64,000 nt of DNA from positions 23,272-87,271 of IMG/VR virus record IMGVR_UViG_3300043788_000049, one strand, 5' to 3'. Origin of the DNA: a virus. How positions within the stretch are numbered: the stretch's first letter is position 1; the number at the start of each line of letters is the position of its first letter. The notes under the pieces were generated by a model, which was given only the letters and a program-made list of their open reading frames with translations, made no database searches and was not told the origin of the DNA. Made by a program: the position numbers and the translations under genes. Below, in pieces: positions 23,355 to 64,000 of this stretch.

Positions 23355-24424
23355 GCGTGTCCTTCCAGTTCCTTCTTTCTTGCCTCGATGATCGCCAGCG
23401 CCTCGTGCTCGACGTCACTAGTCATATTGGGGAGGGAGTTGCGGAGCTTGCGCTGGGCCGGTTGTTTCCACCAACGGTCCAGTTCACCCCGATCCGTAAT
23501 CCGCCCGATCGTGAGAAAAACATAGTTCGGATAATCCTGACCGGTTCGCGCCTCGATCACATCCGCTAACGGGCCAGCGGGGACGGCTGGGTCCGCGTCA
23601 GCCGCCCCCGTCACGCCCGCGGAAGGCTCCAGAGCAGGGGTAGGACCCTGGGCTTCCGCGGGCGCTGGCGATGCTCCCTTGTCGATCGTGGAAGGAGCGC
23701 TCGCTTCGGTCGCCGGAGCGCTTTGCTCCAGCGTTTGGTGGACATGGTCGGCATTGAAGCCCGCGCGCGCCGCAGCGGCGGGGCTGAGCCGGCCGAGCAC
23801 GTTCGTCTTGGGGGTCACATCCTTGGCGTTGTCGGCGCCGATCGCCGAATCCTCAAGCTCGTCCTTACCGTAGGCACCCAGGAGAATATCTGGGCAATAG
23901 CGCCGGCACCATGCGCGCGCCGCCATATATGCCTGCTGTTGGTCGGGATCATTCTTCCAAAGCGGTGAATTTTTTGGGTTAATGTCCTTGAACTTTGGTG
24001 TCCGATATTCGAGGGCGTCGACCTCGCCCTTCATGTGGCCGGTGCAGATGCAGACGCGCTCTGGCCCTTCGCCTTCATAGGTAAACCGCAGGCGTTGTTT
24101 CAATGGAGCCCGGCGCTCGATGACGGCATGAAGAAGCTGGGCAAAATATCCTATCTGATCGTTGACGACATAAGACATTCGGGCAAGCGCAAAAGGCGAA
24201 AACCCCCACTCGTCCGCCTGAACGCAGATAGCCAAACACGATCCTATGTTACCACGTAAATAGAGCGGGACTGCCTTGTCGGAGACGGCCATTAACCGCG
24301 AGAAATCCATCATCTCGGCGACGTTCTTGAACGAAATGCCGCCGACCTTATCGTCAATTTTGATAAGAGCTGTCTTTTCCTGATCGATTTTGCTCTCGAT
24401 AGCTAAAACACGGTTGTCGCTCAT
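23351..24424 (-). CDS. recT: RecT-family single-strand annealing protein
   Basis: A 357-residue protein starting at Met 24424. The N-terminal ~200 residues match RecT recombinases: Y-L-R-G-N-I-G-S-C-L-A-I-C-V-Q-A-D-E-W-G near 60, a central Y-F-A-Q-L-L-H-A-V-I-E-R-R and W-K-N-D-P-D-Q-Q-Q-A-Y-M-A-A-R-A-W near 155. The rest is Ala/Pro-rich and flexible. It anneals single strands produced by the phage exonuclease encoded two genes upstream, for recombination and end repair. Confidence 0.8.
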   Translation of the reverse strand: MSDNRVLAIESKIDQEKTALIKIDDKVGGISFKNVAEMMDFSRLMAVSDKAVPLYLRGNIGSCLAICVQADEWGFSPFALARMSYVVNDQIGYFAQLLHAVIERRAPLKQRLRFTYEGEGPERVCICTGHMKGEVDALEYRTPKFKDINPKNSPLWKNDPDQQQAYMAARAWCRRYCPDILLGAYGKDELEDSAIGADNAKDVTPKTNVLGRLSPAAAARAGFNADHVHQTLEQSAPATEASAPSTIDKGASPAPAEAQGPTPALEPSAGVTGAADADPAVPAGPLADVIEARTGQDYPNYVFLTIGRITDRGELDRWWKQPAQRKLRNSLPNMTSDVEHEALAIIEARKKELEGHA

Positions 24425-24978
24425 TGTTGCCCCCATTTGCCCCAATATTTTACGGCCGCTGCGGAATACGCAGCGCTTGCTTCTTCCGGCGTTCCAAATG
24501 CGCCAAGATGGATGAGCGTGCCGTTAATTCTTATCTTCGCGTGCCACCGCACGGTCTTCCTAACGGCTCGAAAAACACCCCTAAATCCAGACGTATTGTC
24601 GATTTGCTTGTTGCGGTTGCGAGCGTTTTCAACCTGCGTTGCAGGTCTAAGATTTTTCCACCTATTGTCAGACTTAACCCGGTTTATATGATCAATTTCG
24701 GCGATCGGCCATTCGCCGGTAATTATCAGCCAGATTAAGCGATGCGCTAGATACAGCCGACGCTTAATCTGGACCGCGACATACCCCTTTTTACCAATGG
24801 TGCCAGCAATTTGCCCAGCCCACCTTTTGCGCCACCACAAAAGCTTTCGGCCAGTAAACCCAGGCCATTCTTTCCACCGTAAAATTCCTGTTTCGCTTTC
24901 ATATTCCAATATTGACCTGACAAATTGCGCCGACAGGTCGCTCTTCAATGGCTGGCCGTTATTGGCGAGAGCAGTCAT
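24421..24978 (-). CDS. HNH-AP2 homing-type endonuclease
   Basis: A 185-residue protein starting at Met 24978 (ATGA overlap). HNH nuclease region around H-R-L-I-W-L-I-I-T-G-E-W-P then I-D-H-I-N-R and N-L-R-P-A-T; AP2 DNA-binding domain at the C terminus (S-G-F-R-G-V-F-R ... H-L-G-A-F-G-T-P-E-E-A). Typical of selfish endonucleases that invade phage genomes; it separates recT from its exonuclease and is less GC-rich than they are. Confidence 0.8.
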   Translation of the reverse strand: MTALANNGQPLKSDLSAQFVRSILEYESETGILRWKEWPGFTGRKLLWWRKRWAGQIAGTIGKKGYVAVQIKRRLYLAHRLIWLIITGEWPIAEIDHINRVKSDNRWKNLRPATQVENARNRNKQIDNTSGFRGVFRAVRKTVRWHAKIRINGTLIHLGAFGTPEEASAAYSAAAVKYWGKWGQQ

Positions 24979-25913
24979 TCCCCTTCCATCCTTAGCTTTT
25001 GCTCGATCACGCCGCGGCGGCGCTCGCTTATTTCCAGATATTGAACTTCCTCTTGATTTCCCCCAGGGCCAGCCCACAGGCCCGAGTTGAACGCCTTGAC
25101 GAAACGCTCCAGGGCAAAATGGTTTTGCTTTTCCCCTAAAACCAGATCGTGCGGCTTGAGCGTGACCATCCGAGCCGAATAGGGAGGGGTCTTGCGGACG
25201 AAGTAGAAGGAGAAGTCCTCGATCTCCTGACCGAATAAAATCCGGTGGCCCTCCGCGACTAATGCAGCTTGTTGCTGATAATTATATTCCCCGACGGTGC
25301 GAACGAGATCGTCCCACTTCACGCTCTGGGTTGTCTTGAGATCCAAGTAGTTGCCCGAATCAGTCGGGATGACGTCGGGCCGCGCGAGCAGCCAGATCCC
25401 CGTGCTCTCGTCCTGCCATGCCATGGTCATTTCTATCAAACCATTGAGCACTCCCGCGCGCACCAGGGGCAGCTTGCCCAGCCCCGTCGCCATGCCTTTG
25501 ATGTCCTCGACCATGTCGGGCGTCAGGACGGTCAGGTCCGCCTCGGCGGCCTCGACGAGCCACTTCTTGCATTTGAGAGAATTGCCGCTCCATGGCTTCT
25601 CGTTGCCCTTCTCGTCCGTGTAGGTTTCCGGCCGGATGACGAAGCTCTTGCGAAACTCGGATTCCCCCATGAGCAAATGGTGGGTCGCGCGCCCGATGAT
25701 GAGGTCTTTGTTCTCGGGCTTCTCGATCCGCTCCGGGTTGTAGGGCGAAAACGCCCAATAGTCGGCCTCCGAATCATCGAAGATTGTGCGGAGACTGGAC
25801 GAGGACAGGGTGGGACCGACGCAAAGTCGTCCACTATGATAAGCGGAAATTCCTACGTTCGAATAAACGCCGGGCCTGTCGATGGGCTGGCCGGACCAGG
25901 GGATGATCTTCAT
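24975..25913 (-). CDS. PD-(D/E)XK exonuclease, RecE/exonuclease VIII-like
   Basis: A 312-residue protein starting at Met 25913. It has the architecture of phage exonuclease VIII-like nucleases: V-G-I-S-A-Y-H-S ... L-S-S-S-S-L-R near the start, G-R-A-T-H-H-L-L, then the catalytic R-P-D-V ... Y-L-D-L-K-T-T near residue 195 and a Y-N-Y-Q-Q-Q-A-A motif. Degrades double-stranded ends to give single strands for RecT. Confidence 0.75.
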   Translation of the reverse strand: MKIIPWSGQPIDRPGVYSNVGISAYHSGRLCVGPTLSSSSLRTIFDDSEADYWAFSPYNPERIEKPENKDLIIGRATHHLLMGESEFRKSFVIRPETYTDEKGNEKPWSGNSLKCKKWLVEAAEADLTVLTPDMVEDIKGMATGLGKLPLVRAGVLNGLIEMTMAWQDESTGIWLLARPDVIPTDSGNYLDLKTTQSVKWDDLVRTVGEYNYQQQAALVAEGHRILFGQEIEDFSFYFVRKTPPYSARMVTLKPHDLVLGEKQNHFALERFVKAFNSGLWAGPGGNQEEVQYLEISERRRGVIEQKLRMEGE

Positions 25914-26104
25914 CGCCTTGCCCACAGCACGAGAAACGGCAGGCCGGTCACGGCGCACAAGACTAGCCCGAACAAAAAGCCGGGGATGCCGTGATGAAGG
26001 CAATATTCAGCTATTTGGAACCCATCGACGATGTCCGTGACAAACAAAACGAACATGGAAAGCACGGCAGTCATTATCCAAGCACCCAATAGATCTCTTT
26101 TCAT
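25910..26104 (-). CDS. small two-helix membrane protein
   Basis: A 64-residue protein with two transmembrane helices (about 7-28 and 40-62) joined by a short polar loop with Cys/His. Overlaps the exonuclease and regulator genes by four bases each. Function unknown; may be a superinfection or membrane factor. Confidence 0.55.
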   Translation of the reverse strand: MKRDLLGAWIMTAVLSMFVLFVTDIVDGFQIAEYCLHHGIPGFLFGLVLCAVTGLPFLVLWARR

Positions 26105-39301: not shown

Positions 39302-39528
39302 TTCTTCCCCCGCTCGGCCTCGATCCGGTGGACCTCGGCGATCATGTCGAAGATGTCGGGCTCCGGCGGGTCCTCCTCTTCGTCGAGCAGGCCGATATCC
39401 CGCAGATAGTCGTGGCTGACATAGGTGATGCCGCCCGCCCATGGGTGGTTAAGAGCGTGTCCGCCTGCCGGTGTTTCGAAGGCGTCGACGAGCAAGCCTT
39501 GCCAGTTCGGAGGATCGCCAATGGTCAT
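39298..39528 (-). CDS. small protein with WAGGIT and DELR-like motifs
   Basis: A 76-residue protein. Residues 29-40 (P-W-A-G-G-I-T-Y-V-S-H-D-Y) match a segment of the lipoprotein at 43419. The C terminus P-E-P-D-I-F-D-M-I-A-E-V-H-R is a diverged form of the C-terminal tag shared by the small proteins at 9.4-12.4 kb. Coupled to the internal virion protein gene. Confidence 0.55.
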   Translation of the reverse strand: MTIGDPPNWQGLLVDAFETPAGGHALNHPWAGGITYVSHDYLRDIGLLDEEEDPPEPDIFDMIAEVHRIEAERGKK

Positions 39529-42251
39529 CGCGGAGCCGGAGTAAAGATGCGGGGCCAGCGGGAGGGTAGCATTTCTCCCGGTTTCCAGAAATACTGCTGG
39601 CCTGTTTCCTTCCTAAGTTTTTCAGCTTGCTGCCAGAACTCACGGTGCGCATCCGGGTCGGTCGCATACTGCGCCTGATCGAGGATCATCCGGTTGAACG
39701 CCGCGCGGATCGGCCATGCTGTCGCGGCGACGGGCGTATAGCCTTGCGCAAATCGCCGCCCCGCCTTCGCGAAGACCTTGCGCCACGGCTGCTTCTGCGT
39801 GCCGGATTGCCAGTTGCGAAGAAGATCGAGGGCGCCCTGCCCGGCGTTGATGGGGAATGTGGCGACCGGCCCCGCCAGGGTTTCGAGCGGCCCTTGGCCG
39901 AAGGATGAAATGTCGGAGGTCAGGAAGTCGCCGAATAGACCGAAGGAGGCCGAGGTCGCCAGGGCGCGAACCCAGGTCGAGAAGCCAACGCGCGATGTAG
40001 GGTCCATAGGCAGCGCATCCTTGCCAGCGGCGATCTGCTTTAACTGGAGCGACATCATCCCCATCATCCAGAGGATCGGGATGAAAGCGGCGAGATAAGC
40101 GATGCCGTGCCAGTTGCTTCGGGCGAACTCGCGCTGGAGCCCGAGGGCTTGGGTGATCGTGTAGGTGCCAATGAAACCCTTGAACATGCCGAAGGATAGC
40201 GCGAGCGCTCTGGGCGCCCCCCCCGGCACCGTGCCGCCAAGCATTGTCGCCGAAAAGCGCATGGAGTGTTGCGGGACGGCGACCTCTCGCTCGCCCTGCA
40301 TATAGGTGTTGAGGTTGATCCCCACCTGCCGGGCGATCTCCTCGGCGGCCTCTTGGTCCTTGGTCGGATCGAGCGATGGGCGGCCATAGGCTTGCAGGAC
40401 TTCCTGCGGCTTCAGGCTCCCAGCATCGGGAATGTCGATCGGCCGGAGCCACTTCGCGGAGCCGACCGATGGCTCATAAAGCTCGGCGAGCTGCATGACC
40501 TTCCAGTCGCGCTCATCCATCCCGTAGCCCTGGAGCTTCGTGCGCACGCGCTCAGGAAGCCCGGACCAGGACTGCTTGATGTTGTCGGCGAAGAAAGCCA
40601 TGTGGCCGCGGAAGTTGGCGGCCTTGTGGGCATTGACGACCGGGATAAGGCCCGTCCAGTGGGTGGTGCGGTCGGGGAGCCAGCGCGACCAGTTCGCCGC
40701 CTTGGCGAGCGCGCCGGACTGGCGAGCGAGCGCGCCGATGTGGAAGGCTCCAGTCTCGATGTCCAAGCCAGCGCGGAGCATTTCGGCATGATTCGCGCCG
40801 CCTCGGATGAGAGCGCTAAGGACCGTCGGCACGACGTTCGCCCAGCCAATGCCGTTCAAATAGCGAGCCTGGGTCTGGATGACGGGATTGGAGAAGACGT
40901 GCGGAATGACTGCCGAGCCAAGCAATGCGCTATAGGCGTCATTGCGCAGGATCGTGCCAGCCATGGCCCATTTCCCCTCCGTAGCGTCCGCCCCACGGAA
41001 TTGCTCGTAGTAGCCGTCCAGAACTTTCTCGGCCCGCCTCACGCGACGGGTGAGACTTTCGTAGCGATCAGGATTGATCCGCGTTCCCTCGGCGTATTTC
41101 CCTACGAGGCTGGATTGTCCGCCGAGTTCCCGTTCAGCCTCTAAGGACATCAGCTTCTTCAAATGGACGAGCGTTGCCGGAGGGTTGGTGCCGAAAATCT
41201 CCATGAGCGCCGCCTCGCGGGCGATGCTGTGGGTGTGGTGCATCATCTGCGCGAAGAGAGGGCCGTCGCCGACTTCTTTATTGTAGGTCGCCGCAACGTC
41301 GGAATTCTTGAACTTGAAAAAGCGATGGTCGATGTGTGCGAAGGCAAGACCACCGCCGCCCTTGCCGCCATGCGGCTGTAATCGGGCATAGTGGCGGGAG
41401 GAGCCGTCTGTCACCTGATTGAGCCAAGCATGGCGAAGCGTTTGCAGCTTCTTCTCGCGCGGCATGTTGGCGGGGAATTTCTCGCCGGTGAGGGCGTCGA
41501 ACATCCCCGGCCAGTCCAGAAGCGGCTCCAGCCAGTTGGCATAAAGTTCGGCCGCGCGGACCTGCGGCTTGAGATTGGCCTTCTGGATTGCCGAATACTG
41601 AGAGGGCGGCATTCCCTCCGGGGCCTTTCGGCCAAAGCGAACCAGCGCGTAGGGATCCGCTTTCTGCGGGACGCCCCAATTCTCCATCTTTGGGATCATG
41701 CCACCCCAGCGGTTGAACTCCTGCCGGACGAATTCATTGCCGGTGATGTAGGCGTCGTAGACCGCCTTGGCCTCCGGGGTGCTGCGCTCGCCATAGGCCG
41801 CGCGCAGGATGTCCCGCTCCAGGGCTTTGTTGATGTGGTTGCCGCTGAGCTTCGAGCGCCGGAAGGCCAGGAGAAATTGGCCCATCTTCGCATGAGCTAT
41901 ACCGATCAGCGATTCGCCGCGAAAGCGCGCACTCGGAAAGCCGGCATGGCCGAAATCCTCAAACAGTGAGAACTCTGCGCCGATCAGGTCCGGCCGCCCG
42001 CGCGCATCGCGGTAGTTGACGATGTTGCGTGAGACGCGGTCGATGGCCCGGAGCTGGAACAGCGCGGCCCGCTCCTGGGCCATGCCGATGATGTCCTGCC
42101 GGCGCTGCAGTTCGGTCTGGGCTTCTTTCGGTGTCTTCCCGGTCTTCATCAAGCCGGCAAAATCGCGCAGCGTATCGTCGGCCTCTTCCTGGCTGATGTC
42201 GCCGCGGGCGAGCTGGCCTTTGACGCAATTTACGAAATCTTCGGCAGCCAT
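39525..42251 (-). CDS. large internal virion (ejection) protein
   Basis: A 908-residue protein, mostly helical. The C-terminal third has hydrophobic segments (L-A-L-S-F-G-M-F-K-G-F-I-G-T-Y near 685 and A-Y-L-A-A-F-I-P-I-L-W-M-M-G-M-M near 720), then a conserved-looking end. This is the arrangement seen in large internal virion/ejection proteins of podophages, which leave the capsid with the DNA and form a trans-envelope channel. It follows the polyvalent protein in the same operon. Confidence 0.65.
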   Translation of the reverse strand: MAAEDFVNCVKGQLARGDISQEEADDTLRDFAGLMKTGKTPKEAQTELQRRQDIIGMAQERAALFQLRAIDRVSRNIVNYRDARGRPDLIGAEFSLFEDFGHAGFPSARFRGESLIGIAHAKMGQFLLAFRRSKLSGNHINKALERDILRAAYGERSTPEAKAVYDAYITGNEFVRQEFNRWGGMIPKMENWGVPQKADPYALVRFGRKAPEGMPPSQYSAIQKANLKPQVRAAELYANWLEPLLDWPGMFDALTGEKFPANMPREKKLQTLRHAWLNQVTDGSSRHYARLQPHGGKGGGGLAFAHIDHRFFKFKNSDVAATYNKEVGDGPLFAQMMHHTHSIAREAALMEIFGTNPPATLVHLKKLMSLEAERELGGQSSLVGKYAEGTRINPDRYESLTRRVRRAEKVLDGYYEQFRGADATEGKWAMAGTILRNDAYSALLGSAVIPHVFSNPVIQTQARYLNGIGWANVVPTVLSALIRGGANHAEMLRAGLDIETGAFHIGALARQSGALAKAANWSRWLPDRTTHWTGLIPVVNAHKAANFRGHMAFFADNIKQSWSGLPERVRTKLQGYGMDERDWKVMQLAELYEPSVGSAKWLRPIDIPDAGSLKPQEVLQAYGRPSLDPTKDQEAAEEIARQVGINLNTYMQGEREVAVPQHSMRFSATMLGGTVPGGAPRALALSFGMFKGFIGTYTITQALGLQREFARSNWHGIAYLAAFIPILWMMGMMSLQLKQIAAGKDALPMDPTSRVGFSTWVRALATSASFGLFGDFLTSDISSFGQGPLETLAGPVATFPINAGQGALDLLRNWQSGTQKQPWRKVFAKAGRRFAQGYTPVAATAWPIRAAFNRMILDQAQYATDPDAHREFWQQAEKLRKETGQQYFWKPGEMLPSRWPRIFTPAPR

Positions 42252-48904: not shown

Positions 48905-51094
48905 TCAGAACTGCGTCACGGAATAGGAAGCTTGCAGGATTGAGTTTGGCGTGTAAACCGTCGTCTTGGTCCCAGCCAGCAGGCTGAAGCTGGTGTCGCT
49001 CGTCGTCTCACAGACCGTGATATAGCCGAGGGCAGGATAGACGCCGGTTACTACATATGGAACCGAACCGCCGCCGTTATTGAGGTTTATGGAAAGACCC
49101 GCGAACATATAGGTGATGCTCAAGACGTCCAGATAGACGACATCAGTCTGCCCCTTGTAGGATACCGTCAGACCACTGACATTGCTGGTGGTGAGATTGG
49201 TTCCATAGCTTGCAAACGTGTGAGCCCATCTCGCGAAGTGTGTCGCGGGAGCGCCGGTGTTCCAATCCGTAACCTGATAATCGACATTGCCGAAGACGGT
49301 ATTGTAAGAGCCAAGAGCGCCAAGCGACCCTAGTGCGGTGACTTCAGTCGGCGTCAGGCGCGGCGCCTTATCAAATGCCGGCTGCGAACCCCAGAATTCC
49401 GTATTGTCATTCGACCATGGCTTGTTGAAAGGCGTCGAGGTATGGGCCAGAAAAGGCGTCCTATCCCATTCGCCCCCACCCGTCGCTAGGCAATCGTTAA
49501 ATTGTGGCGCGGCTCCATTGGAGCAAGTTATGACCGTGAACCCCTGGATGGAGCGACCGTTGCGTACATTCGGAGCGTAGATAGTGTTCCCGTTATCTCT
49601 GAAAATAAGTCTTGCCGTTGTATTTGGTTGGATGTCGATGATAATCGGTTCGCTTTGGTAGTTTTGCCCAAAGGTATTTGCATCAAACGTAATATCCCCG
49701 GCACTTGCTTCTTGCACTATAAAAGGAAAGGATTGAGCGCAGTAGAATAAAGCTAAGTTAGGTCCCGTAGGACTGTTCGACGGTTTATAAGTGGTCATCC
49801 CCGGGTCATAGTTAAAGTACGACCGTTGAATTAGGGATTTCGCATCTCCAGTGAATCCAGAGAAACTATCCACAAATGTCGTACAGCCACCTGGATTCTC
49901 TATATGAACACCGAGGGTATTGAATGCCGTTCCGTAGAATACTGTTACGCGTTCCGCTCCATATACTGTTGTTACCGCTTGAATCTCATTTTGGAAATCT
50001 GTTGCGGTCGCTACGTTCGCATTGTTGTAGTTACCGACAATCCAATTCTGCAAAACCTGAAACGTCCCGACGCCGGTGCTCGTGTTGAACTGCGTCATGG
50101 TCGCCGGAACGACGCCAAAGTGGGCCGTGTTGAACATCCACGAATTATAGACGCAAGCGCTGACCAAATTTGACCCGATCGTTGGACAACCGGTTATCGT
50201 CGAATCTGGCGACGCAACAACGGCGGTGAACGTCAATGTGAATGTGTTTCCGACCGGAGTCGCCGTGACTGATGAAACACTTGATATAGAAAAAGAGTTT
50301 GATTTGCCCGACACGGCTGATGGGTTGCCGCCAAGGACCGTTACCGCTCTACCCATGCTCGAATTGTAGGCGATCGTTGCGCCTATGCTATCCTCAACCG
50401 CGTCGTTTATGTCGTTCTGGGCTTGTGAGAAATAGAGGCCATTATAGCAATTGGTGAAAACCGACTTTCGGATCGTGTTGCTGTCCGCTAGGTTCGAATT
50501 GCCATTCGCCCCTGTTTCGAAGCATGAGTAGAAATTTTCGACCCAGACATTTTCGATAAGCGTTCGAGAGGTTCCGCCGGAGCCCCCCGCAACACCGATC
50601 CCGACTCCGTTCGCGTTAAGTTGCCCTCTATAGCCGTTGTTCGGCCCTTGAATGAGCACGTCAGTGACGCCCATTCCCTGGCCTGTGCCAACCCATAAGG
50701 CGACACCATTATTGAAGTTGGGGCATATGCGAGTGCCCCAGCCCTCGTGATTTGCCCCTCCGCTTGGCTCGCCCGCAAGCGTCATAGAGAAGGCGAATAT
50801 TGTCGGATTGGATAAGCTTGAGCGGAGGTTGCCCGGAGCATCGAGGAAGAGTGACGAGGTGGTTTTGTAGCAGTTGCCGGTAGGAGGGAGATAGACTCTC
50901 TGAATCCCCGCCGCGTATGCCGCGTCTATCGTTGCCTGAATGGCAGCCGTGTCGTCGGTTGACCCGTTGCCTACCGCGCCGAAATCCTTGGCGTTGACGC
51001 TACCCCAATAGTTTTGGAAGGTCGTATTTGCGTAAACCCCACTGTAGACGAAACAGACGAGGCCAATCAGAAAGACTTTCAGGGCCTTCGTCAT
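48905..51094 (-). CDS. pectate-lyase-like tail spike
   Basis: A 729-residue protein. The segment V-N-A-K-D-F-G-A-V-G-N-G-S-T-D-D-T-A-A-I-Q (about 33-53) is the signature start of the right-handed beta-helix fold (Pectate_lyase_3) of phage tail spikes, followed by a long Asn/Thr/Gly-rich helix and a C-terminal domain. It likely binds or degrades host polysaccharide. The first 22 residues resemble a signal peptide (L-K-V-F-L-I-G-L-V-C-F-V-Y-S-G-V-Y-A), unusual for a virion protein. DNA here is less GC-rich than the flanks. Confidence 0.8.
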   Translation of the reverse strand: MTKALKVFLIGLVCFVYSGVYANTTFQNYWGSVNAKDFGAVGNGSTDDTAAIQATIDAAYAAGIQRVYLPPTGNCYKTTSSLFLDAPGNLRSSLSNPTIFAFSMTLAGEPSGGANHEGWGTRICPNFNNGVALWVGTGQGMGVTDVLIQGPNNGYRGQLNANGVGIGVAGGSGGTSRTLIENVWVENFYSCFETGANGNSNLADSNTIRKSVFTNCYNGLYFSQAQNDINDAVEDSIGATIAYNSSMGRAVTVLGGNPSAVSGKSNSFSISSVSSVTATPVGNTFTLTFTAVVASPDSTITGCPTIGSNLVSACVYNSWMFNTAHFGVVPATMTQFNTSTGVGTFQVLQNWIVGNYNNANVATATDFQNEIQAVTTVYGAERVTVFYGTAFNTLGVHIENPGGCTTFVDSFSGFTGDAKSLIQRSYFNYDPGMTTYKPSNSPTGPNLALFYCAQSFPFIVQEASAGDITFDANTFGQNYQSEPIIIDIQPNTTARLIFRDNGNTIYAPNVRNGRSIQGFTVITCSNGAAPQFNDCLATGGGEWDRTPFLAHTSTPFNKPWSNDNTEFWGSQPAFDKAPRLTPTEVTALGSLGALGSYNTVFGNVDYQVTDWNTGAPATHFARWAHTFASYGTNLTTSNVSGLTVSYKGQTDVVYLDVLSITYMFAGLSINLNNGGGSVPYVVTGVYPALGYITVCETTSDTSFSLLAGTKTTVYTPNSILQASYSVTQF

Positions 51095-54590: not shown

Positions 54591-54997
54591 AGCCTGAAGA
54601 TCGTCTTACCTGATTCCCAGCCGATATGAACGTCACCCGCCTGTGGCGAAAAGGGAAATTTGCCGCTACCGAGGGTGTCAATATGGGCGATCAGCCGGCT
54701 CGTGGCTCGGGAGCCGGTATCCTGGTAGACGACGATGAAATCGACGGAGGCCGCATCGACCGCCTCGATGACGACGCTATTGGCGCAGGCGACGCCGTTC
54801 TCCCCCGTCTTGCCCGTCAACACGACGCTCTTGGACACCACCGCCGCGCCGAGGTCGGCCAGAAAGCGATCCTTCTGGATATTGGCCTTGCGCTGCTTGC
54901 CATCGCAGAGGACCGCGCAGATTTTGTCCTCCAGCCACTTAATCTGGCCGCAGAGGAAGGCTTCACGCCCTTTCTCAAAGAGACTGTTCGCCATCAT
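54587..54997 (-). CDS. conserved small structural protein
   Basis: A 136-residue protein: S-L-F-E-K-G-R-E-A-F-L-C-G-Q-I-K-W, D-R-F-L-A-D-L-G-A-A, L-T-G-K-T, G-V-A-C-A-N-S-V, Y-Q-D-T-G, L-I-A-H-I-D and G-W-E-S-G-K-T-I-F-R-L at the end. This order is characteristic of a conserved small structural protein found in many tailed phages near tail genes. Function unknown. Confidence 0.6.
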   Translation of the reverse strand: MMANSLFEKGREAFLCGQIKWLEDKICAVLCDGKQRKANIQKDRFLADLGAAVVSKSVVLTGKTGENGVACANSVVIEAVDAASVDFIVVYQDTGSRATSRLIAHIDTLGSGKFPFSPQAGDVHIGWESGKTIFRL

Positions 54998-57900
54998 TCG
55001 ATCCTTGCGCCAGTGATCATGCCGGTTTCGTCGCGTGAGAAAGAGACCTTCGTCTTGTTCTCGGCTCCGACCGTCGCCCCGGTGATGAAGCCATTCTCAT
55101 CGCGAGAGAAGGAGACGCTCTTGGCCCCGCCCTCCATGCACTTGACTGCGGCCTTATAGGCTTTCTCAAGCTGGTCCGCCATTTCTTGGGTCATGACGTG
55201 AGGCGGTTCGGGGACGCCAGCCTCTTTCGCGGTGCGCGCGGCGGCGGCGATTTCCTCATCGGTCGCCAGCAAGCGGTCGTAGACGCCGCGCATTTCTTCG
55301 GAGATCGGACGCCCAAGGCGCAAGAGGCCACGGTAAATCTTGCGCAGCCAGTCCTTGAACATCTCGAAGACGCGGGCGAGGCCTTCCGATGGAGCTTTCC
55401 CTGAGGCCAGATAGTCCTCGAAGCCATCAGAGAACTTTTCGCGGTGTTCTGGCGTGAGGCTCTCGCGGTCTTTGGCTCCCACAAAGGCTAGCGCCGTGGC
55501 GGCGTCTGCCTTGATCTGGGGTGAAGCGTCCGGCGCGGAGGCATCCTCCAGCAGCTCGTCGAACCAAAGATGCGAACCCTCGTGCATGACTGTCGAGGCG
55601 TCCGCCGTCTCGAACAGCTTGATGATCCGCTGGTTGCCCTGGAAGGTGATGGCCCCGCGCTGCGCGCCGCCGGGTAGCGCCGGCCCTTGAGCCAATTCCT
55701 TCTCAGTCTCCGGCTCGATCGTCGCCGCGGGGTTCGGCGCCTTCATCGAATCGGATAGCGCTTTGATCTTCTGAAGCGTCTGCTGGTATTCGGCCTCCTT
55801 CGGCCATTTGCCGGCGGCCAGCTTTTCGAGCTTCTCGAGGTCCTTGCGCCGATCGGCCAGCGCCGTCTCGGTCGCCTTGGCCCTGCTGGCGATATTGCCC
55901 AGGAGGTTCTCAAAACGCCGGATCAGGCCGCCGGGGTCCGTCTCCTTATTAAGTATGGTCTGGGTCGGCGAGCCATAGGGGTCCGTGCCCTTGAGCATCG
56001 GCGTGCCCTTTAGATAGAGCCCGTCGCTGTCGTATTGGGTCTGGACCTGCATCTGCATTTCAAAGCCGGACAACTCGCCCAGGTTGATGATTTTGGGCGT
56101 GTAATAGCGGCTGGCGTCCAGAGCCAGCACGGTCTTGAGGATGGCTTCGCCAGCCGCCTTGCGCTCGGTGATCACCTTGCCGCCGACCGTGATCTTGAAC
56201 TTGTCGCCGGCAAGGTCCTGCACGCGATCGCCGTCGGCCTTCTCGGTCGGCAGGCGCTCCTCGTAGGTGGCGATGGCCGCGCGACTGGCGTTGATCTGCC
56301 AGGAGGCGCGATCGACGTTCTGCTTATGCGCGCGCCGCTGGGCGGAGAGTTGCCGAGCCTGCCGATCGAGTTCCGCCAATTCCATGATGCGAGTATCGCC
56401 GGAGGCCGCCGCCTTCATTTCCGCCGCCTCGGGGAGCGGGTTGTCGATGTCCTCGGCGTGGCGCGAGCCCTTGGCGCCCGACAAGACTTGGCTGATGAAC
56501 TTCGACTTCGTGTCGAGCTTTTGCCACATGAAGGCGTCGAACGAGCGCTTGGTCACGTAGCGGAAGATTTGCACCTGCTTGTTGAGGTTGCCTTGGCGGA
56601 CAATGCGCCCGTCGCGCTGTTCGACCTCCGCCGGCTTCCATGGCGCATCCAGATGGTGCATCGCGATCAGGCGATCCTGAACGTTAGTGCCGACGCCCAT
56701 CTTTCCCGACGAGCCGATAAGGACACGAATATCGCCAGCGCGGACCTTCTTGAATAAGCGCCCCTTGGCAGCATCGTCCTTGGCGTCGTGGATCGCCGCG
56801 ATCTGCTCCGCAGGAATGCCCTTATCGACCAAGCGCTGTTTGATGTCGGCATAGAGGTCAATCTTGGGTTGTTCGATCTGCGCCGGGTCGCCCATCTCAT
56901 CCTCGATAGGCTTCTTTGCCGCCACTTTGGTCTGCGGCACGCCCATGTCGAGGAAGACCATCTGGACAGTGCCCGGCTCTTTGCCCTTCTTCCAAATCTC
57001 GTGAATATTTTTAACAGCGAGCGCGATCTTGCCTTTGGGGTTGAAATCGAAATTAGGATCGATAAGGCGACCGTCCGTCGCAACCTTGCGTCCGGCCGTC
57101 ACGACCGAGAGCATGTTCGGTTGGCCCTTCTCAGGCCGCTTGCCTTTCAGACTCTCCGCCAATTCCACGAGCTTCTGAATGTGCAGTTCTTCCTCTTCCG
57201 AAGGGGTCGCTTGGACAATCTCAATCCCTGGTCCGCCCGCTTTGGTCCGAACCTCGGGCCGCGGCAGTTTGAGCATGTCCGCCGTCTTGGTGTCGGCGAT
57301 CTCGGAATAGAGGCTGATGAGTTCTGGAACGTTGACGAATTTCGAGAAGGACGAGACTTCCTTGAAGGTCCGGCCGTCCGCTGAAAGCTCCATGTTGTTG
57401 ACGACCTTGCCGAAGGTCGAGGCCCAGGCATCGAAGTTCTCCAGCCCCGCTTCCTTCAGACGGTCGAGTTCGAGATAGCGCATCATCGTCCAGAGTTCGG
57501 CCATCGTGTTGGAGACGGGAGTGCCGGTCGCGAACACCGCTGATCGGCCGGGGCGCTTTTGTTCGAGGTAGCGGATTTTGAGGAACAGGTCCTCAGCCCG
57601 CTGGCTGTCGCCCTGGGCGAGACCCTTAACATTCCCTAACCTACTGGAAAAATACAGATTTTTGAAAAAATGCGATTCGTCGATTACCAAATGATCGATC
57701 CCGGTCTCTTCAAATGAAACGCCAGTGTCCTTGCGTTCCTCGTTCAGGAGCTTTTGCAGCTTGTCCTCCAGTTTCTTCTTGGCCTTTTCGAGCGCCTTGA
57801 CCGTCGGCGAGCGCTTGTCATCGGTGTCGGCAATCTCCGCCTTGCGCGCCCGCTCCAATTCGTCGAGTTGCTCCTGGATGAAATTCTGCCGATGCTCCAA

Positions 57901-60900
57901 GCTTGTGTTGATACGCCCGAAGGCGGAATGGGTCATAATGACGCCATCCCAATCGTTCGCTGCGACCTTGGCGATAAACGCCTTCCGGTGCTCTCTAGTC
58001 ATTTCCTCCTTCTGAGCAACCAGAATTTTGGCGTTTGGATAGGCTTCGATGAACTCTCGGGCGAATTGCTCCAGCATATGGTCGGGGATAGCAAAAGCGC
58101 CTTTATTGATGAGCCCTAAGCGCTTCTGTTCCATCACAGCGGCAATGCTCGTGACGGTTTTTCCACTTCCAACACTGTGCGCCAGAAGCGTATTTCCACT
58201 CTGGACAATGCGCCAAACTGCATCCTTCCGATGCTTACGATCGGCGAATTTGGGATTGAGGCCGGGGAAGGTCTGGTGGGCGCCGTCGAATTGCCGCGGG
58301 ACGAGGTTGTTGTAGGTCCGATTGTAGATGGCCTCCAGGCGCTGCGCGCGCTCCGGATCGGCGAAGGCCCAGGCGTCGATGCCGCGCTCCGGGTCGCCGG
58401 TGAAGGCTTCCTTGAGCGCCTCGACGCGCACGCGCGCCGCCTCGGTTGCGCCTTGGTCGACCTCATAGACATCAGGATTGCTGCTGACGTGGTTCCGGAC
58501 GGTGATCTGGCGGTTGTTGATCGCAGCGTCGATCACATCGTCCACGCTCACCCGGTCGGTCCCGTAGGTGGTGTGGGCAGAGGATGAATACTGGCCGTGC
58601 TTGACCTTCCAGCCGCCGGTGACGGGAATGGTCGAAATCCGGGTGTTGTAGCCGCCGATCTCCTTGATGAACGCCTCGTAGACGTCCGCCGGGATCCATG
58701 GGGCCCCGAACTGCGCCATGATGTCCGTGCCGGTCAACGGGGTCGGCTGAACCTTCTCCAAGGCCGCGACATTGCGTGAGTAGGCCGGGTCGCCATCGGC
58801 AATGACGCGGGCCTCTTCGAGCTTCTTGACCACATCGCCGGAGAGATAGCGGTCCGCCGGCTCCCATTGCCGCCCGTTCGGGTTCTGGAAGATCAGATCG
58901 CCTAGCGCTTTCGCGGCGGCTTCCTCGCTCCCGACATTGAGCATCTGGCCGATCTGTTGCAGATCGACGCGGCCGGTGGCGTCGAGCGTCGCCGCGAGCG
59001 CATCGGCGGGGCCATTGATCTGGCGCTCCTTCGGCGGGGCGATGATGTCCTTCTTCTGAATGTCGGCGGGCTTGGCCGTGCCCGTCTCGGCGTCATATTG
59101 CTCGATCGCCGCGACCTTCCAGGAATCGGGGTCATCCTTGAATGGCGCGAAGTTTGGCGTCTTGGTGATCGTGACCGGCTCGCCCGCGCGCGTGAGGCGC
59201 TTGGTGGTCTTTGTTTCTTCCTTGTTGATCGGGCCATGCGCCTTGACGAACTGGTCATAGGCTTCGCGGAGTTGCTTGCGGAGAGCATCGGCCTTGTCGC
59301 CACCCGAGAGTTGCTCCTTGAGCAAGTCGTTGACGATATCGCGAATGCCGGAGAGCTTCTTGACCCTGCTTTCGTCATCCCCGGATAGCCTCTGCTCGAC
59401 GCCGCGGCCCTGCTCGCGCCGATAGACCTTGCCGCCCTTCGAGAAGTAGGCCCCTTCCTTGGAGGCTCCCGGCTCAATATCGCGCTGGTCGATGACGGGC
59501 GGCCGCGGCGAGCCTCTGGGGACGAAGGCTCCTTCCCGCATGGTCGCGCCAGCGCCGTGGATTGCCATTCCAAGGTCCTGCGGGTCGCCTATTAGCACCG
59601 GCTCATTCTTGGCATACATCGAGCCCATCAACCGCATCTCGCCCAGCATCATCTTCGGATGGTCGGCAAAATACTCGTTGATCTTGACCGGCCCCTCGGG
59701 AGTCGAAATCTCCTTGAGATTGGTCCAGTTCTCGCCCGGATAGTCCGGCTCGCCGGGGACCTTCTTGCGCAGAAAGATAATGTCGGTCGTGACCTCGGTG
59801 CCGGCATTCCCCGCGAATGCGCCCTTGTCTCCGCCGGGCAGGCGAATAGCGCCAACGAAATCCGCCGTCTTGGAAAGCTCGCGGCGTGTTCCCGCGTCCA
59901 CGCGATCCATCGTGTAGCGCGACGTGATGAACGAAACGACGCCGCCGGGGCGAACCTTATCGAGCGACTTGACGAAGAAGAAATCATGGATCGGATAGGA
60001 GCCGTAGGGCTTTTCGGTCAGATTGAAATTGCCGAACGGCACGTTCGAGATTGCGAGGTCGAAGTAATTGCTGGGCCGCTTCAGCGTCTCGAAGCCCTGG
60101 ACGTTAATGTCAGCATCCCCGTAGAGCGCCTTGGCGATCCGGCCGGTCAGCGAGTCCAGCTCCGTCGCGGTCCAGGCGGTGCGGCTCGCGAGGCTGTCGG
60201 GGATCAGGCCGATGAAGTGCCCAACGCCCGCGGCCGGTTCGAGCGCGAGGCCGCCGTTGAACCCCAAATGCTGGAGAGCGCCCCAGATGCCGCGGATGAC
60301 GTCGGGAGACGTGTAATGGGCATTGAGGGTCGAGGCGCGCGCGGCGGCGTATTCCTCATCGGTGACGAGCGCTCGGAGGGCGTCGCGCTGCTGCTTGAAC
60401 TCGGGCCCACGGTCGGAGAACATCTTTTGGGCGAACGCGCCCCAGCCGGTGTATTTGACGAGGGTCGCCTTTTCCTCCGGCGTCGCCTCGCGCGCCTCGT
60501 CCTCGATCAGCTTGAGAACCCGGATGGCGTCGATGTTGGCGTTGATCTTCGTCTTGGGGCCACCGACGCCGACTTGGTCATCGGGAGTGATGCGATAGTT
60601 CGAGCGGGTGCGCTCCGCGATCTTCTCCTCGGCCTCGGCTAGTCCTGCGCCTCGGGGGTCGGTTGATGGATCTGGTCGTGCCTCACCTGCTCCTGGACCT
60701 CCGCTTGGCGGCTTTGTAACTCCCTCACTCGGTCCAGGTAGGGCAGCTTCTGCACCTCCGGCTTGTTGTGGTGCTCCGCCATCAGGTGCTCGTCCATCTC
60801 CGACGCCGAGTTCCCCACCCCCTCCAGATAGCTCTGGAGGTTTCCGGATGCGCTTAGGTCTTTGAGGACGTGCGGCATTGCCTCCTTCAGGTATTGGTGG

Positions 60901-63900
60901 TGCTCCTGGCCGTATCTCTCCGCCGTCGGGTTGTTGAACATTGGCTTCCTCGCCAGTCGGGATGGGTGCGGGCTCGGTTATCCCCGGTCCCCACTCAGGG
61001 TCCTTGTTCCAGGCGTTGTCGTAAAGCTGCCGTCCCAACGCCATCACGTCCTTGTAGTGAGCGAGATTGGCGGGGTCTGACAGATCGAGGCGCTTGACCG
61101 GCTGTCGGATCGCATGGGCCTTTCTCATCACCTCGGCGATCGGCTTCGGGACGATCTGCAATTCCGCTGACGTGCCGTCCCCCAGACCGACTTGCAGGTG
61201 ATAAGCCCGGTAGCCCTCCTTGCTCGTCTCCATGGAGCTTTCAGCTTCCAGGACGCCGCCGGTGCGGTCGAGCTTGGCTAGGATTTCATCCATCGCGGCG
61301 CGAGTGTCGACGACGATGCGCGCGCCGAGGTAATCGGAGATTGTCGAGGCCGGGCGCCCCTTGACCTTGATCTTCTGCTCTAGGCCGGACTTGTCCTTGA
61401 CGCGGCTGTTGTAGACATGGGCGCCGTCGATGCCCGCGACCAATTGGCGCAACCCCTCGTCCAGCCGGGGTTTATTCTCTTCCGCAGCGGCATGGAGGGC
61501 TTGCCAATCGTTGCTCCCCTGAATAATTAATTTATTGGTGGAAGGGTCAATGTCTCCCAACCGGAAATCCGAAAATCGAGTGATCGCCGGCCCCTCGAAG
61601 ATTGATGGCGGCATTTCGCGGGTGATTGAACTGCCCAACGGCTCGGGCAGGGTCGAAACTTGGAAGCCCGGCGTCGGCTGGGTCGAGGGCGGCGCTTCGC
61701 CGGATGAATTTATCGGGGCGATGCCGGTATCCAAGGCATTGGCCGCGAGAGCCGGCATTCCCTCATCCGAACTCTGAGCCAGCCGGATTTCGACATTCTG
61801 CTTCGAATAGAGGTCCCAGGCGTCGCCCGCGCCGGTGCGCGCCGCGCGCGCGTTATAGCGGGCCGCCCAGACCGTCGCCGCTGCGTCTGCCACCGCTGGG
61901 TCCGTGCCCCCCGCGATCAGCTTCCGCCGCACGTCCTCGTAAACCATCTGGGAAGGCCCAGGAGGGGCAACGGGCGGCGCGGTGGCTAGATCAGCCTCCA
62001 ATGCCTTCGCCTGCTCCTGGCGGCCTTGCGGCGTGTCCAGATCGGGTGTTTCCGGCTCGGCGTCGGTGCGATCGAGGTCCGTGAGGTTGAAACCGTCCCT
62101 GGCGATCAGTTTCGCCACTTCATCGAGAAAGACGCGCGCGGCCTTACGGGGCTCCATCCCATCCACCACGCTCGACGCCGCGCGGTTCAAGGCCGCCGAA
62201 ATCGGCCCCGATCGGGTGGCAAGTTTCTGGAGCAATTGCCCAAGCTGCGCGGCTTGCTCGGCGCGGTCGGCATTGGTGTCGACAAGAACATTCCCCTGGC
62301 CCTCGATCCGCTCCGCCTCGCGCGCCAGAGTGGCGAAGATGCGCTTGTCCTCGCTGATGAGCGACATCGCGGCGCCGTAGACCTGCGCGCGCTCCTGGTA
62401 GAGCGAGCGGGTCACTTCCTCCTTGCCGAATAGCGTCTCCTGGACTTCCCTGGCGAAGCCGGCCGAATTGGCGTCGGCAATCATCATCCGGGCTTCGTTC
62501 TCGTTTTGCGGCTTGAACTTCGCCAATTCCCCCATGACCGCCGCATGGTTCTCCTTGCCCGGCATCATATTGCCGACCAGGGCCGCGTGGTTCTGCGGCA
62601 CAACGCCGTTGAGCGTCATTTCCCAAGCGGGGTCCGAAAGTTCGGAGAGGCCCTTGGCCTGCCGCAGTTTGCCCGACGTGATCGGCAGGCTGTCGTCCCA
62701 CATATCCGGGCGGTCGCGGAAGACGCGCGCAGTGTCGAGCGCATCGCCAGAGCCTTCCTGGATATTCTTCTTCGCCGAGATTGCGCGGGCATCGGCTGGC
62801 GTCCAGCCGTCCTTCTCACGCAAAAGAGCGCCGGTCATGCGGATCGATGATGTCAAGTTTTCCGCCCTCAGATGCGTCTCTTCCGGGCGCTTTGTTTGAG
62901 CGGCATTCTGGGCGATTTCCTGGGCTTCTCTCCTACCGACATAGCGGCCTTTGGAGGTAATGAAGCCGTCCAAGCCGATGGCGTCGATGTCCTTTATGTC
63001 GATCCCGGCGGCCATCGCCTTCGCATAGGCATCAGAGTGAAGAGGCCCTGTGAATACGCGACCATCCTTGGCCTTGATCGCCGATGAGACAATGCGCTCA
63101 GGACCTGTGGCCTCTTGTTCGGACAGAAGCCGCTTCGCCAGCCCAAGGCGCTGATGGCCATCAACAATGGTCCGCGTCCCATCGGCGCTTTCGTAAACGA
63201 CGACGTTCCCCGCCGCGAGCGGGTCCCAGCGCTGCACGCCCGAGAGCCGATCCGTCACGCCCTGCTGGTTGGCCCCGCCCTTATATTGGAACGCCTGGGC
63301 GTCGGTGCCGAGAGTGCGGGGATCGAAGCTCGTATAGGTGATCGGCTTCCCCTCGACCATTTCGGTGTGGCCGGCGGCGCGCTCGGGAAAGCCCTGGTGA
63401 TCCGGGATGACGGCGATCGGCCCGGCCGGCGGCGCGTGCATCGGCGGCTGCGGCGGCGCGACAATGTCCGGGTTCTCAGCGTGCCGGACCATTCCCTCGT
63501 AGGAGCGGAGGTTTTCTTCCGCCGGCACGCCGGGGACTGCCGGCGGCGAGGCAAGGTGATCGTTCTCGGCCCGATCGACGAGGCCGTGGTTGGCGGAGGT
63601 CTGCGGGGCTTCGCGATCGGCGGCGGCGGGCGGGACGAAGGGCTTCGGCGGTCCAGGCAACGCCTTGGGAGGGCCGGTGGGCGCGGTTGGCGGCGCGGGC
63701 TCCTCGACCTTCGGGGGCTTTCCCGTCGCCGCGGCGCGCGCGGCCTCACGGGTCGAACCGACCGGCAGCCCGTTATCTTTCTCCCAATCCGCGACGCTAT
63801 CCCAGAATTGCTTGGCTCCCGGCGATGTGTCCTCGCCTCCATTCTGGGCCATGCGGATGAAGTGGTTGATCCCAGCCTGACCGAGAAGGCGCCCAACTTC

Positions 63901-64000
63901 CGAGATGCCCTGCATGAACCCAGACGGGACCGCGCCGTAGAGTGCGGCCGTCCCCACATCGCGAAGCGCCGGCATGAGACCATTATCCTCGCCGGCCGCC
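54994..64000 (-). CDS. giant polyvalent protein, DarB-like (5' end outside window)
   Basis: At least 2993 residues from Met 63975; the frame is open to the window edge, so the true start is probably outside. Numbering from that Met: ParB-like D-G-H-Q-R segment near 266; RelA/SpoT-like domain about 850-965; adenine-methyltransferase-like domain about 1150-1450 with N-V-P-F-G (near 1311) instead of N-P-P-Y; SNF2-type helicase with Walker A G-S-G-K-T near 1936, D-E-S-H near 2098 and an R-Q-G-N motif near 2459; zincin-like H-E-G-S-H near 2797; two C-terminal V-S-F-S-R-D-E repeats. Such polyvalent proteins (P1 DarB is the known example) are packaged and injected to block restriction. Confidence 0.85.
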   Translation of the reverse strand, partial: AAGEDNGLMPALRDVGTAALYGAVPSGFMQGISEVGRLLGQAGINHFIRMAQNGGEDTSPGAKQFWDSVADWEKDNGLPVGSTREAARAAATGKPPKVEEPAPPTAPTGPPKALPGPPKPFVPPAAADREAPQTSANHGLVDRAENDHLASPPAVPGVPAEENLRSYEGMVRHAENPDIVAPPQPPMHAPPAGPIAVIPDHQGFPERAAGHTEMVEGKPITYTSFDPRTLGTDAQAFQYKGGANQQGVTDRLSGVQRWDPLAAGNVVVYESADGTRTIVDGHQRLGLAKRLLSEQEATGPERIVSSAIKAKDGRVFTGPLHSDAYAKAMAAGIDIKDIDAIGLDGFITSKGRYVGRREAQEIAQNAAQTKRPEETHLRAENLTSSIRMTGALLREKDGWTPADARAISAKKNIQEGSGDALDTARVFRDRPDMWDDSLPITSGKLRQAKGLSELSDPAWEMTLNGVVPQNHAALVGNMMPGKENHAAVMGELAKFKPQNENEARMMIADANSAGFAREVQETLFGKEEVTRSLYQERAQVYGAAMSLISEDKRIFATLAREAERIEGQGNVLVDTNADRAEQAAQLGQLLQKLATRSGPISAALNRAASSVVDGMEPRKAARVFLDEVAKLIARDGFNLTDLDRTDAEPETPDLDTPQGRQEQAKALEADLATAPPVAPPGPSQMVYEDVRRKLIAGGTDPAVADAAATVWAARYNARAARTGAGDAWDLYSKQNVEIRLAQSSDEGMPALAANALDTGIAPINSSGEAPPSTQPTPGFQVSTLPEPLGSSITREMPPSIFEGPAITRFSDFRLGDIDPSTNKLIIQGSNDWQALHAAAEENKPRLDEGLRQLVAGIDGAHVYNSRVKDKSGLEQKIKVKGRPASTISDYLGARIVVDTRAAMDEILAKLDRTGGVLEAESSMETSKEGYRAYHLQVGLGDGTSAELQIVPKPIAEVMRKAHAIRQPVKRLDLSDPANLAHYKDVMALGRQLYDNAWNKDPEWGPGITEPAPIPTGEEANVQQPDGGEIRPGAPPIPEGGNAARPQRPKRIRKPPELSGGGGELGVGDGRAPDGGAPQQAGGAEAALPGPSEGVTKPPSGGPGAGEARPDPSTDPRGAGLAEAEEKIAERTRSNYRITPDDQVGVGGPKTKINANIDAIRVLKLIEDEAREATPEEKATLVKYTGWGAFAQKMFSDRGPEFKQQRDALRALVTDEEYAAARASTLNAHYTSPDVIRGIWGALQHLGFNGGLALEPAAGVGHFIGLIPDSLASRTAWTATELDSLTGRIAKALYGDADINVQGFETLKRPSNYFDLAISNVPFGNFNLTEKPYGSYPIHDFFFVKSLDKVRPGGVVSFITSRYTMDRVDAGTRRELSKTADFVGAIRLPGGDKGAFAGNAGTEVTTDIIFLRKKVPGEPDYPGENWTNLKEISTPEGPVKINEYFADHPKMMLGEMRLMGSMYAKNEPVLIGDPQDLGMAIHGAGATMREGAFVPRGSPRPPVIDQRDIEPGASKEGAYFSKGGKVYRREQGRGVEQRLSGDDESRVKKLSGIRDIVNDLLKEQLSGGDKADALRKQLREAYDQFVKAHGPINKEETKTTKRLTRAGEPVTITKTPNFAPFKDDPDSWKVAAIEQYDAETGTAKPADIQKKDIIAPPKERQINGPADALAATLDATGRVDLQQIGQMLNVGSEEAAAKALGDLIFQNPNGRQWEPADRYLSGDVVKKLEEARVIADGDPAYSRNVAALEKVQPTPLTGTDIMAQFGAPWIPADVYEAFIKEIGGYNTRISTIPVTGGWKVKHGQYSSSAHTTYGTDRVSVDDVIDAAINNRQITVRNHVSSNPDVYEVDQGATEAARVRVEALKEAFTGDPERGIDAWAFADPERAQRLEAIYNRTYNNLVPRQFDGAHQTFPGLNPKFADRKHRKDAVWRIVQSGNTLLAHSVGSGKTVTSIAAVMEQKRLGLINKGAFAIPDHMLEQFAREFIEAYPNAKILVAQKEEMTREHRKAFIAKVAANDWDGVIMTHSAFGRINTSLEHRQNFIQEQLDELERARKAEIADTDDKRSPTVKALEKAKKKLEDKLQKLLNEERKDTGVSFEETGIDHLVIDESHFFKNLYFSSRLGNVKGLAQGDSQRAEDLFLKIRYLEQKRPGRSAVFATGTPVSNTMAELWTMMRYLELDRLKEAGLENFDAWASTFGKVVNNMELSADGRTFKEVSSFSKFVNVPELISLYSEIADTKTADMLKLPRPEVRTKAGGPGIEIVQATPSEEEELHIQKLVELAESLKGKRPEKGQPNMLSVVTAGRKVATDGRLIDPNFDFNPKGKIALAVKNIHEIWKKGKEPGTVQMVFLDMGVPQTKVAAKKPIEDEMGDPAQIEQPKIDLYADIKQRLVDKGIPAEQIAAIHDAKDDAAKGRLFKKVRAGDIRVLIGSSGKMGVGTNVQDRLIAMHHLDAPWKPAEVEQRDGRIVRQGNLNKQVQIFRYVTKRSFDAFMWQKLDTKSKFISQVLSGAKGSRHAEDIDNPLPEAAEMKAAASGDTRIMELAELDRQARQLSAQRRAHKQNVDRASWQINASRAAIATYEERLPTEKADGDRVQDLAGDKFKITVGGKVITERKAAGEAILKTVLALDASRYYTPKIINLGELSGFEMQMQVQTQYDSDGLYLKGTPMLKGTDPYGSPTQTILNKETDPGGLIRRFENLLGNIASRAKATETALADRRKDLEKLEKLAAGKWPKEAEYQQTLQKIKALSDSMKAPNPAATIEPETEKELAQGPALPGGAQRGAITFQGNQRIIKLFETADASTVMHEGSHLWFDELLEDASAPDASPQIKADAATALAFVGAKDRESLTPEHREKFSDGFEDYLASGKAPSEGLARVFEMFKDWLRKIYRGLLRLGRPISEEMRGVYDRLLATDEEIAAAARTAKEAGVPEPPHVMTQEMADQLEKAYKAAVKCMEGGAKSVSFSRDENGFITGATVGAENKTKVSFSRDETGMITGARIE
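60639..60941 (-). CDS. nested gene inside the polyvalent protein, alternative frame
   Basis: A 100-residue frame on the same strand, out of frame with the host gene. Start ATG 60941 is preceded by GAGGAAG at good spacing. The product looks like a folded helical protein (Y-L-K-E-A-M-P-H-V-L-K-D-L-S-A-S-G-N-L-Q, A-S-E-M-D-E-H-L-M-A, P-Y-L-D-R-V-R-E-L-Q-S), weakly like TnpV-type proteins, whereas the polyvalent frame here is only a Pro/Gly/Ala linker. This supports real dual coding. Confidence 0.5.
   Translation of the reverse strand: MFNNPTAERYGQEHHQYLKEAMPHVLKDLSASGNLQSYLEGVGNSASEMDEHLMAEHHNKPEVQKLPYLDRVRELQSRQAEVQEQVRHDQIHQPTPEAQD

Follow-up and report, generated by a model that had tools for sequence, protein, structure and literature searches.

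The late cluster and its giant polyvalent protein gene

The window, a stretch of 64,000 nucleotides covering positions 23,272 to 87,271 of the metagenomic virus record IMGVR_UViG_3300043788_000049, ends in a very large gene on the minus strand, whose frame runs from 63975 to 54994, counts 2,993 codons starting at the first ATG and reaches the contig end without a stop codon (Table 1). The two ends of the contig carry an exact 127-base direct repeat, with window positions 63874-64000 identical to record positions 1-127 (L055:1-127; L numbers denote the loci compared here). Assemblers leave exact end repeats on circular contigs, and this record, of about 87,144 bases, is likely to be circular or complete, with the polyvalent protein gene spanning the junction. 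Since the contig ends share this repeat, we take the protein really to be of ~3,364 residues. Between stops the joined gene has 3,364 codons; its start codon (ATG) shares bases with the stop codon (TGA) of an upstream gene for a 1,151-residue protein with a Phage_lysozyme2 domain (E 2e-19).

Polyvalent proteins are very large, combine several unrelated enzymatic domains and are encoded together with packaging or virion genes. The protein of the window has, within its ~3,364 residues, a RelA/SpoT-type synthetase (SYNTH) domain and an SNF2 part recognised by Pfam, and a methylase part recognised by homology. Upstream on the same strand lie genes for tail (phrog_376), major head (phrog_3437) and head-tail adaptor (phrog_332) proteins as well as the lysozyme, and the terminase small subunit gene is also on this strand. 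Such a setting fits a virion protein and makes delivery with the virion likely. Elsewhere in the window (23351-26003), genes for a RecT-like annealing protein and exonuclease VIII adjoin (phrog_561, phrog_412).

Table 1. Features of the polyvalent protein gene and of the late cluster, in window coordinates
Feature	Position	Strand	Basis
Part of the polyvalent protein gene within the window, frame open to contig end	54994..63975	-	ORF; ~363 more residues at contig 1-1215
N-terminal region common to L002 and L007	61858..63444	-	35-43% identity; no Pfam family match
Pro/Ser/Thr-rich linker preceding the domain	61576..61788	-	50-53% identity over 40-74 aa to L010, L005, L018, L019, L017
RelA/SpoT-type SYNTH (pyrophosphotransferase) domain, 201 aa as modelled	60979..61581	-	PF04607 match, AlphaFold2, VIA-align
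Core PF04607 match with R60, K62, K70, D83, G86, R88, Y124, H128, E140, Q142 (201-aa numbering)	61153..61407	-	Invariant in 12/12 members
DarB-type adenine methylase part	59600..60603	-	tblastn and phmmer across loci; Pfam Eco57I just E 0.21
SNF2-type helicase/translocase, first half	57658..58200	-	PF00176 E 1.9e-7
Helicase_C half	56590..56811	-	PF00271 E 1.4e-4, slightly under cut-off
HExxH motif (HEGSH), possible zincin-type peptidase	55570..55584	-	Pattern alone, without Pfam support
Tail-spike-like protein	48905..51094	-	phrog_7458 E 5.5e-7, residues 28-80 only
Virion structural protein phrog_684, late cluster	39525..42251	-	PHROGs E 4.4e-85

The body of the protein is widely shared. In tblastn searches it matched 139 phage records, 48 of them covering at least 80% of the query and many annotated as DarB-like antirestriction proteins, and 2,134 plasmid records. 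Judged by this homology, the surrounding protein is a DarB-type methylase-SNF2 polyvalent protein. It shares the methylase-SNF2 body with DarB of phage P1 and DarB-like proteins (32-38% identity over most of 1,767 residues in the phages listed), whereas its RelA/SpoT domain has no match in the phage collection. The N-terminal region, which L002 and L007 have too, is presumably ParB-like, to judge by eye from a DGHQR motif. Near the C-terminus of the part within the window is an HExxH pattern, which is also found in L005 and may mark a zincin-type peptidase like those of other polyvalent proteins. DarB is a component of the P1 head, and metallopeptidase domains have been proposed to cut polyvalent proteins into their units (PMC5512222).

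A RelA/SpoT-type domain and its relatives

From the DNA alone, an earlier note had placed a RelA/SpoT-like nucleotidyltransferase domain at 61085-61440. Its four motifs are all present there, in the same order, in the minus-strand frame of 54994-63975, and the span falls inside a structured module that is somewhat wider than proposed, about 60979-61581. Against the 201-residue piece, PF04607 (RelA_SpoT) scored 32.8 bits (33.6 in a repeat run) at E 8.9e-8, above the curated cut-off of 27, and the same domain searched within the whole polyvalent protein scored 27.7 bits. The SYNTH domain of the window is a complete member of the RelA/SpoT-type superfamily PF04607. The key residues are also in place, with one correction: the basic residues of the ATP site are R60, K62 and K70 (in RVKDKSGLEQK), directly before the KVKGRPAS that had been quoted. 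The metal-binding aspartate is that of ISDYLG (D83), the second acidic residue is the glutamate of AELQ (E140), accompanied by Q142, and the G-loop reads GYRAYH (Y124, H128).

An AlphaFold2 model of the domain, built from eight aligned members, reached a mean pLDDT of 92.4 and a pTM of 0.87, and superseded an earlier model from three sequences (pLDDT 73.6). The top matches of this model in a Foldseek search of the PDB include RelP/SAS2 (8.2e-8) and Tas1 (1.2e-7). In VIA-align the first 32 rows are all of the SYNTH fold, with non-SYNTH entries beginning at Z 6.5; Z is 15.6 for both SAS1 and SAS2 of B. subtilis, 13.5 for Tas1, 13.4 for CapRel and 8.1 for FaRel2. The earlier note had named a fold mismatch or misplaced key residues as grounds for giving up the assignment; the fold matched, and the residues are in place as judged by spacing along the sequence rather than by distances within the model.

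Relatives of the domain came to light through profiles, as a single-sequence search with the window domain found nothing among viral contigs, phages (50,697 records) or solved structures, and a second family member gave four phage records, the best at E 2. An iterative search leading from the window domain via L005 (58%) and L007 (51%) yielded 11 further members, so that the family now has 12 members on 12 viral contigs, with identity to the window domain down to 23%. Of 24 stretches put forward by one family scan, 11 were confirmed. Two of the members, L018 and L019, are near-duplicates. PF04607 scores over its cut-off in five members (the window, L005, L007, L014 and L016) and below it in five (L010, L013, L015, L017 and L019), and misses L018 and L020. 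A second Pfam domain was recognised in the same protein in only five of the 12 (the window, L005, L010, L013 and L015). Two scans of genome contigs with narrow peptide patterns returned no relative, and given how narrow the patterns were, the domain may also occur in bacteria. Two weak matches were set aside. One, in an ORF of L041, was scattered (18.7 bits); the other, a Deinococcus plasmid gene (E 0.2, with weak PF04607), has a GYRDL motif and by its look belongs to a separate pair of HTH and synthetase genes. The plasmid of Deinococcus sp. QL22 (L009:5573-6821) may carry a toxin-antitoxin set made up of three successive genes: one coding for an HTH protein, a divergent RelA-like one (PF04607 E 0.0015) and a small one.

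The 12-member alignment has 18 invariant columns, including all of the residues named in Table 1. The residues of FaRel2 that bind its ligands, namely ATP analogue, metal and acceptor, are R64, K66, S70, K74, R77, D90, G93, R95, Y128, E145 and Q147 (PMC11782079). Mapped by spacing, nine of these 11 positions are invariant in all 12 members (hypergeometric 2e-9), the two that are not kept in the alignment being S70 and R77. Because nine of the 18 invariant columns fall on FaRel2 ligand positions, across 12 viral contigs, the domain is more than a chance resemblance. Among seven members dN was below dS in 20 of 21 pairs, with dS mostly saturated and the remaining pair not computable.

Activity, acceptor and delivery

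With this pattern of conservation, a working enzyme is a better fit than a sensor, and since nearly every catalytic position is kept, of the activities suggested in the earlier note, making alarmone-like nucleotides is more likely than sensing them. Its alarmone synthetase-like domain in a polyvalent protein has held up as regards the fold, the key residues and the late-cluster position; the activity, the acceptor, the delivery and the effect on the host are inferred. The domain is real and looks intact, and we consider it probable, with some reserve, that the whole constitutes a virion-delivered polyvalent protein with an active ATP-dependent 3'-pyrophosphotransferase SYNTH module. The giant protein would be packaged or attached in the virion and would enter the cell with the DNA. 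Upon entry, and before phage gene expression, the module would use ATP to pyrophosphorylate an acceptor of the host, moving the beta,gamma-pyrophosphate onto its 3'-OH. This may quickly slow the translation and growth of the host, or suppress a host defence. Meanwhile the methylase-SNF2 part would protect the incoming DNA. As the acceptor, we would give GDP or GTP, yielding (p)ppGpp, about an even chance; the CCA end of tRNA comes in as a minority candidate, some other acceptor as a slight prospect and adenine nucleotides as a slighter one.

The comparison with characterised SYNTH enzymes bears on this choice. The closest by fold, SAS1 and SAS2 (RelQ/RelP), align with the model over 164-167 residues at an rmsd of 2.7-3.0 Å, and have in common with it the ATP-site and metal residues, the G-loop tyrosine and the syn3 histidine. 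They differ in overall sequence (16-21% identity) and in being stand-alone tetramers, where the window domain is a module of a giant protein. They differ also in two motifs: syn3 is GYRAxH in all 12 family members, with alanine where (p)ppGpp enzymes have serine, and the syn4 arginine is replaced by valine in 11 of 12, L016 alone retaining it. Guanosine enzymes have SxH in syn3 and IR in syn4, and Apk2 has GxN and YH (PMC12226406); the 12 members thus show neither signature. Owing to the syn3 alanine and the syn4 valine in 11 of 12, the acceptor may be an unusual one. The Apk class appears unlikely on these motifs, which do not separate the (p)ppGpp class from the tRNA class. The sequence profile favours the (p)ppGpp enzymes, as a search of solved structures with the family profile finds RelP (6fgk, 1.1e-11) and also Rel, RelA and RelQ, whereas FaRel2, CapRel and Tas1 are absent from it at E <= 10.

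That the acceptor is tRNA, as for the pyrophosphokinases CapRel-SJ46 and FaRel2, is possible, though we think it unlikely. These enzymes share the SYNTH core and, by spacing, the donor-site residues; the fold score of CapRel is close to that of Tas1, and CapRel likewise lacks the syn3 serine (GYSGIH, with VQLR at the other motif). Among the SYNTH rows of VIA-align, CapRel and FaRel2 are those whose alignments begin at model residue 1 or 2, the others beginning at 23-31, a hint of N-terminal order like that of the tRNA enzymes, and the model does have an ordered N-terminal hairpin. Against this, SAS1 and SAS2 score higher by fold, the sequence match to CapRel and FaRel2 is weak, neither being found in the profile search described above, and the basic pair K28/R29 of FaRel2 would map by offset to N24/D25, neither of them basic. 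Mesh1 hydrolyses both (p)ppGpp and (p)ppApp (PMC12691689), and PaSpo, a small alarmone hydrolase of phage SSU5, reverses the tRNA modification (PMC11559606).

An inactive SYNTH fold that binds nucleotides, alarmones or a host Rel, in keeping with the sensing option, would account for the loss of the syn4 arginine and of the positions of FaRel2 S70 and R77. It is made quite improbable by the invariance, in all 12 members and despite identity as low as 23%, of the ATP-site basic residues, the metal aspartate, the glutamate, the glutamine and the G-loop tyrosine and histidine. We hold in similarly low regard an ordinary late intracellular function without delivery, or a role in lysogens as an effector of defence or superinfection. 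One such defence gene is CapRel, from Salmonella phage SJ46 (PMC9712102), and the genome with its RecT and exonuclease would suit such a role; but CapRel stands alone as a gene, whereas the domain of the window forms part of a DarB-type protein encoded in a late cluster, and no HD gene was found nearby with a single query. Very improbable is a (p)ppApp synthetase draining ATP in the manner of Tas1, Apk1 and the MuF-linked Apk2: the Tas1 fold score and a shared delivery logic, a phage protein fused to a synthetase (PMC12226406), speak for it, if the window protein is indeed delivered, but GYRAxH and the ELQ-like motif followed by valine in 11 of 12 replace the Apk2 signatures, Pfam matched no MuF domain in the window protein or its upstream 405-residue part, and a single query, the HD-hydrolase gene of phage PHB04, found no relative in the window or the 11 family loci.

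In that Bordetella phage, vB_BbrM_PHB04 (L008:5014-7279), a synthetase-like gene lies directly after the portal gene, and two genes on there is an HD-domain gene annotated as a (p)ppGpp synthetase/hydrolase; the pair looks like an Apk2-type toxin-immunity set. Its synthetase-like gene has GYRDL, as has the Deinococcus plasmid gene.

Earlier proposals and a possible exchangeable module

The earlier note had suggested that an injected protein of this sort would be a new early takeover activity. The concept is not wholly new, as RelA/SpoT domains were reported from polyvalent proteins of phages by Iyer et al., 2017, who suggested for them an alarmone-like host shut-down or takeover (PMC5512222), and MuF-linked Apk2 toxins with (p)ppApp synthetase domains are characterised phage cases (PMC12226406, PMC12691689). 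What does look distinct from the phage domains described is the branch to which the window belongs. In the account of Iyer et al., 2017, the RelA/SpoT domains in question occur only in phage-type polyvalent proteins and were gained independently in Spirochaetes and in epsilon-proteobacterial (pro)phages (PMC5512222). The proteins are alike in carrying SYNTH in giant multi-domain proteins with ParB, LPD, methylase and SNF2 parts, and in their proposed role; by description they are set apart, the 2017 text naming Spirochaetes, epsilon-proteobacterial (pro)phages and MuF fusions, whereas here the scaffold is of DarB type and the phage metagenomic. Our literature search recognised no test of a RelA/SpoT domain within a polyvalent protein, and with a compact domain of 201 residues, a confident model and 12 diverged members the 2017 proposal becomes directly testable. 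If active and delivered, this would be an enzyme carried in by the virion to put the host into a stringent-like or tRNA-blocking state at entry. It would thereby mirror bacterial defences like CapRel, in which the same fold is turned against phages.

The domain is found in varied surroundings. In L005 it stands before the methylase, as in the window, and in L010 after the helicase, in a protein of at least 4,675 residues with InPase, ddrB-ParB and LPD38; in L013 it is joined to RadC, ddrB-ParB and LPD38, and in L015 its partners are LPD38 and a beta-clamp part of DNA polymerase III. The Pro/Ser/Thr-rich stretch directly before the domain recurs in otherwise different proteins (11-member alignment), as if linker and domain travelled together as a cassette, and the linker may serve as a cleavage site, a spacer or a translocation aid. 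When family profiles were run against the ORFs of 32 DarB-type loci, the sole clear match was the contig of L005 (L040 in that set).

In other close relatives a different domain takes this place. A Zeta_toxin kinase lies in the N-terminal part of L002 (aa 854-987, E 5.6e-14), L004 (aa 712-843, E 5.1e-18) and L026 (aa 468-605, E 1e-19), the part where the window and L005 have RelA/SpoT. In none of these five proteins were both found, the Pfam search of L004 and L026 covering the part before the methylase only. Because Pfam covered some of the contigs, namely N-terminal parts or whole proteins of L002, L004, L005, L022, L023, L026, L027, L042 and L046, the count of Zeta-bearing relatives is at least three. 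This alternation suggests that, next to modules for DNA protection, such proteins have a toxin-like one that can be exchanged. A bolder and rather unlikely extension would be a phage-only SYNTH class, marked by GYRAxH, E-[LIVM]-Q-x-V-P and the conserved linker, carried as a cassette between ejection proteins in alternation with Zeta-type kinases and entering with the DNA; it would use an acceptor unlike those of the (p)ppGpp, (p)ppApp and FaRel2-type enzymes and would arrest the host instantly, before phage expression.

The beta-clamp part of L015 lies at residues 2323-2585 of a polyvalent protein of 3,888 residues with the RelA-like domain (L015:6230-17893), where PF02767 matches at E 1.1e-8 and PF02768 weakly.
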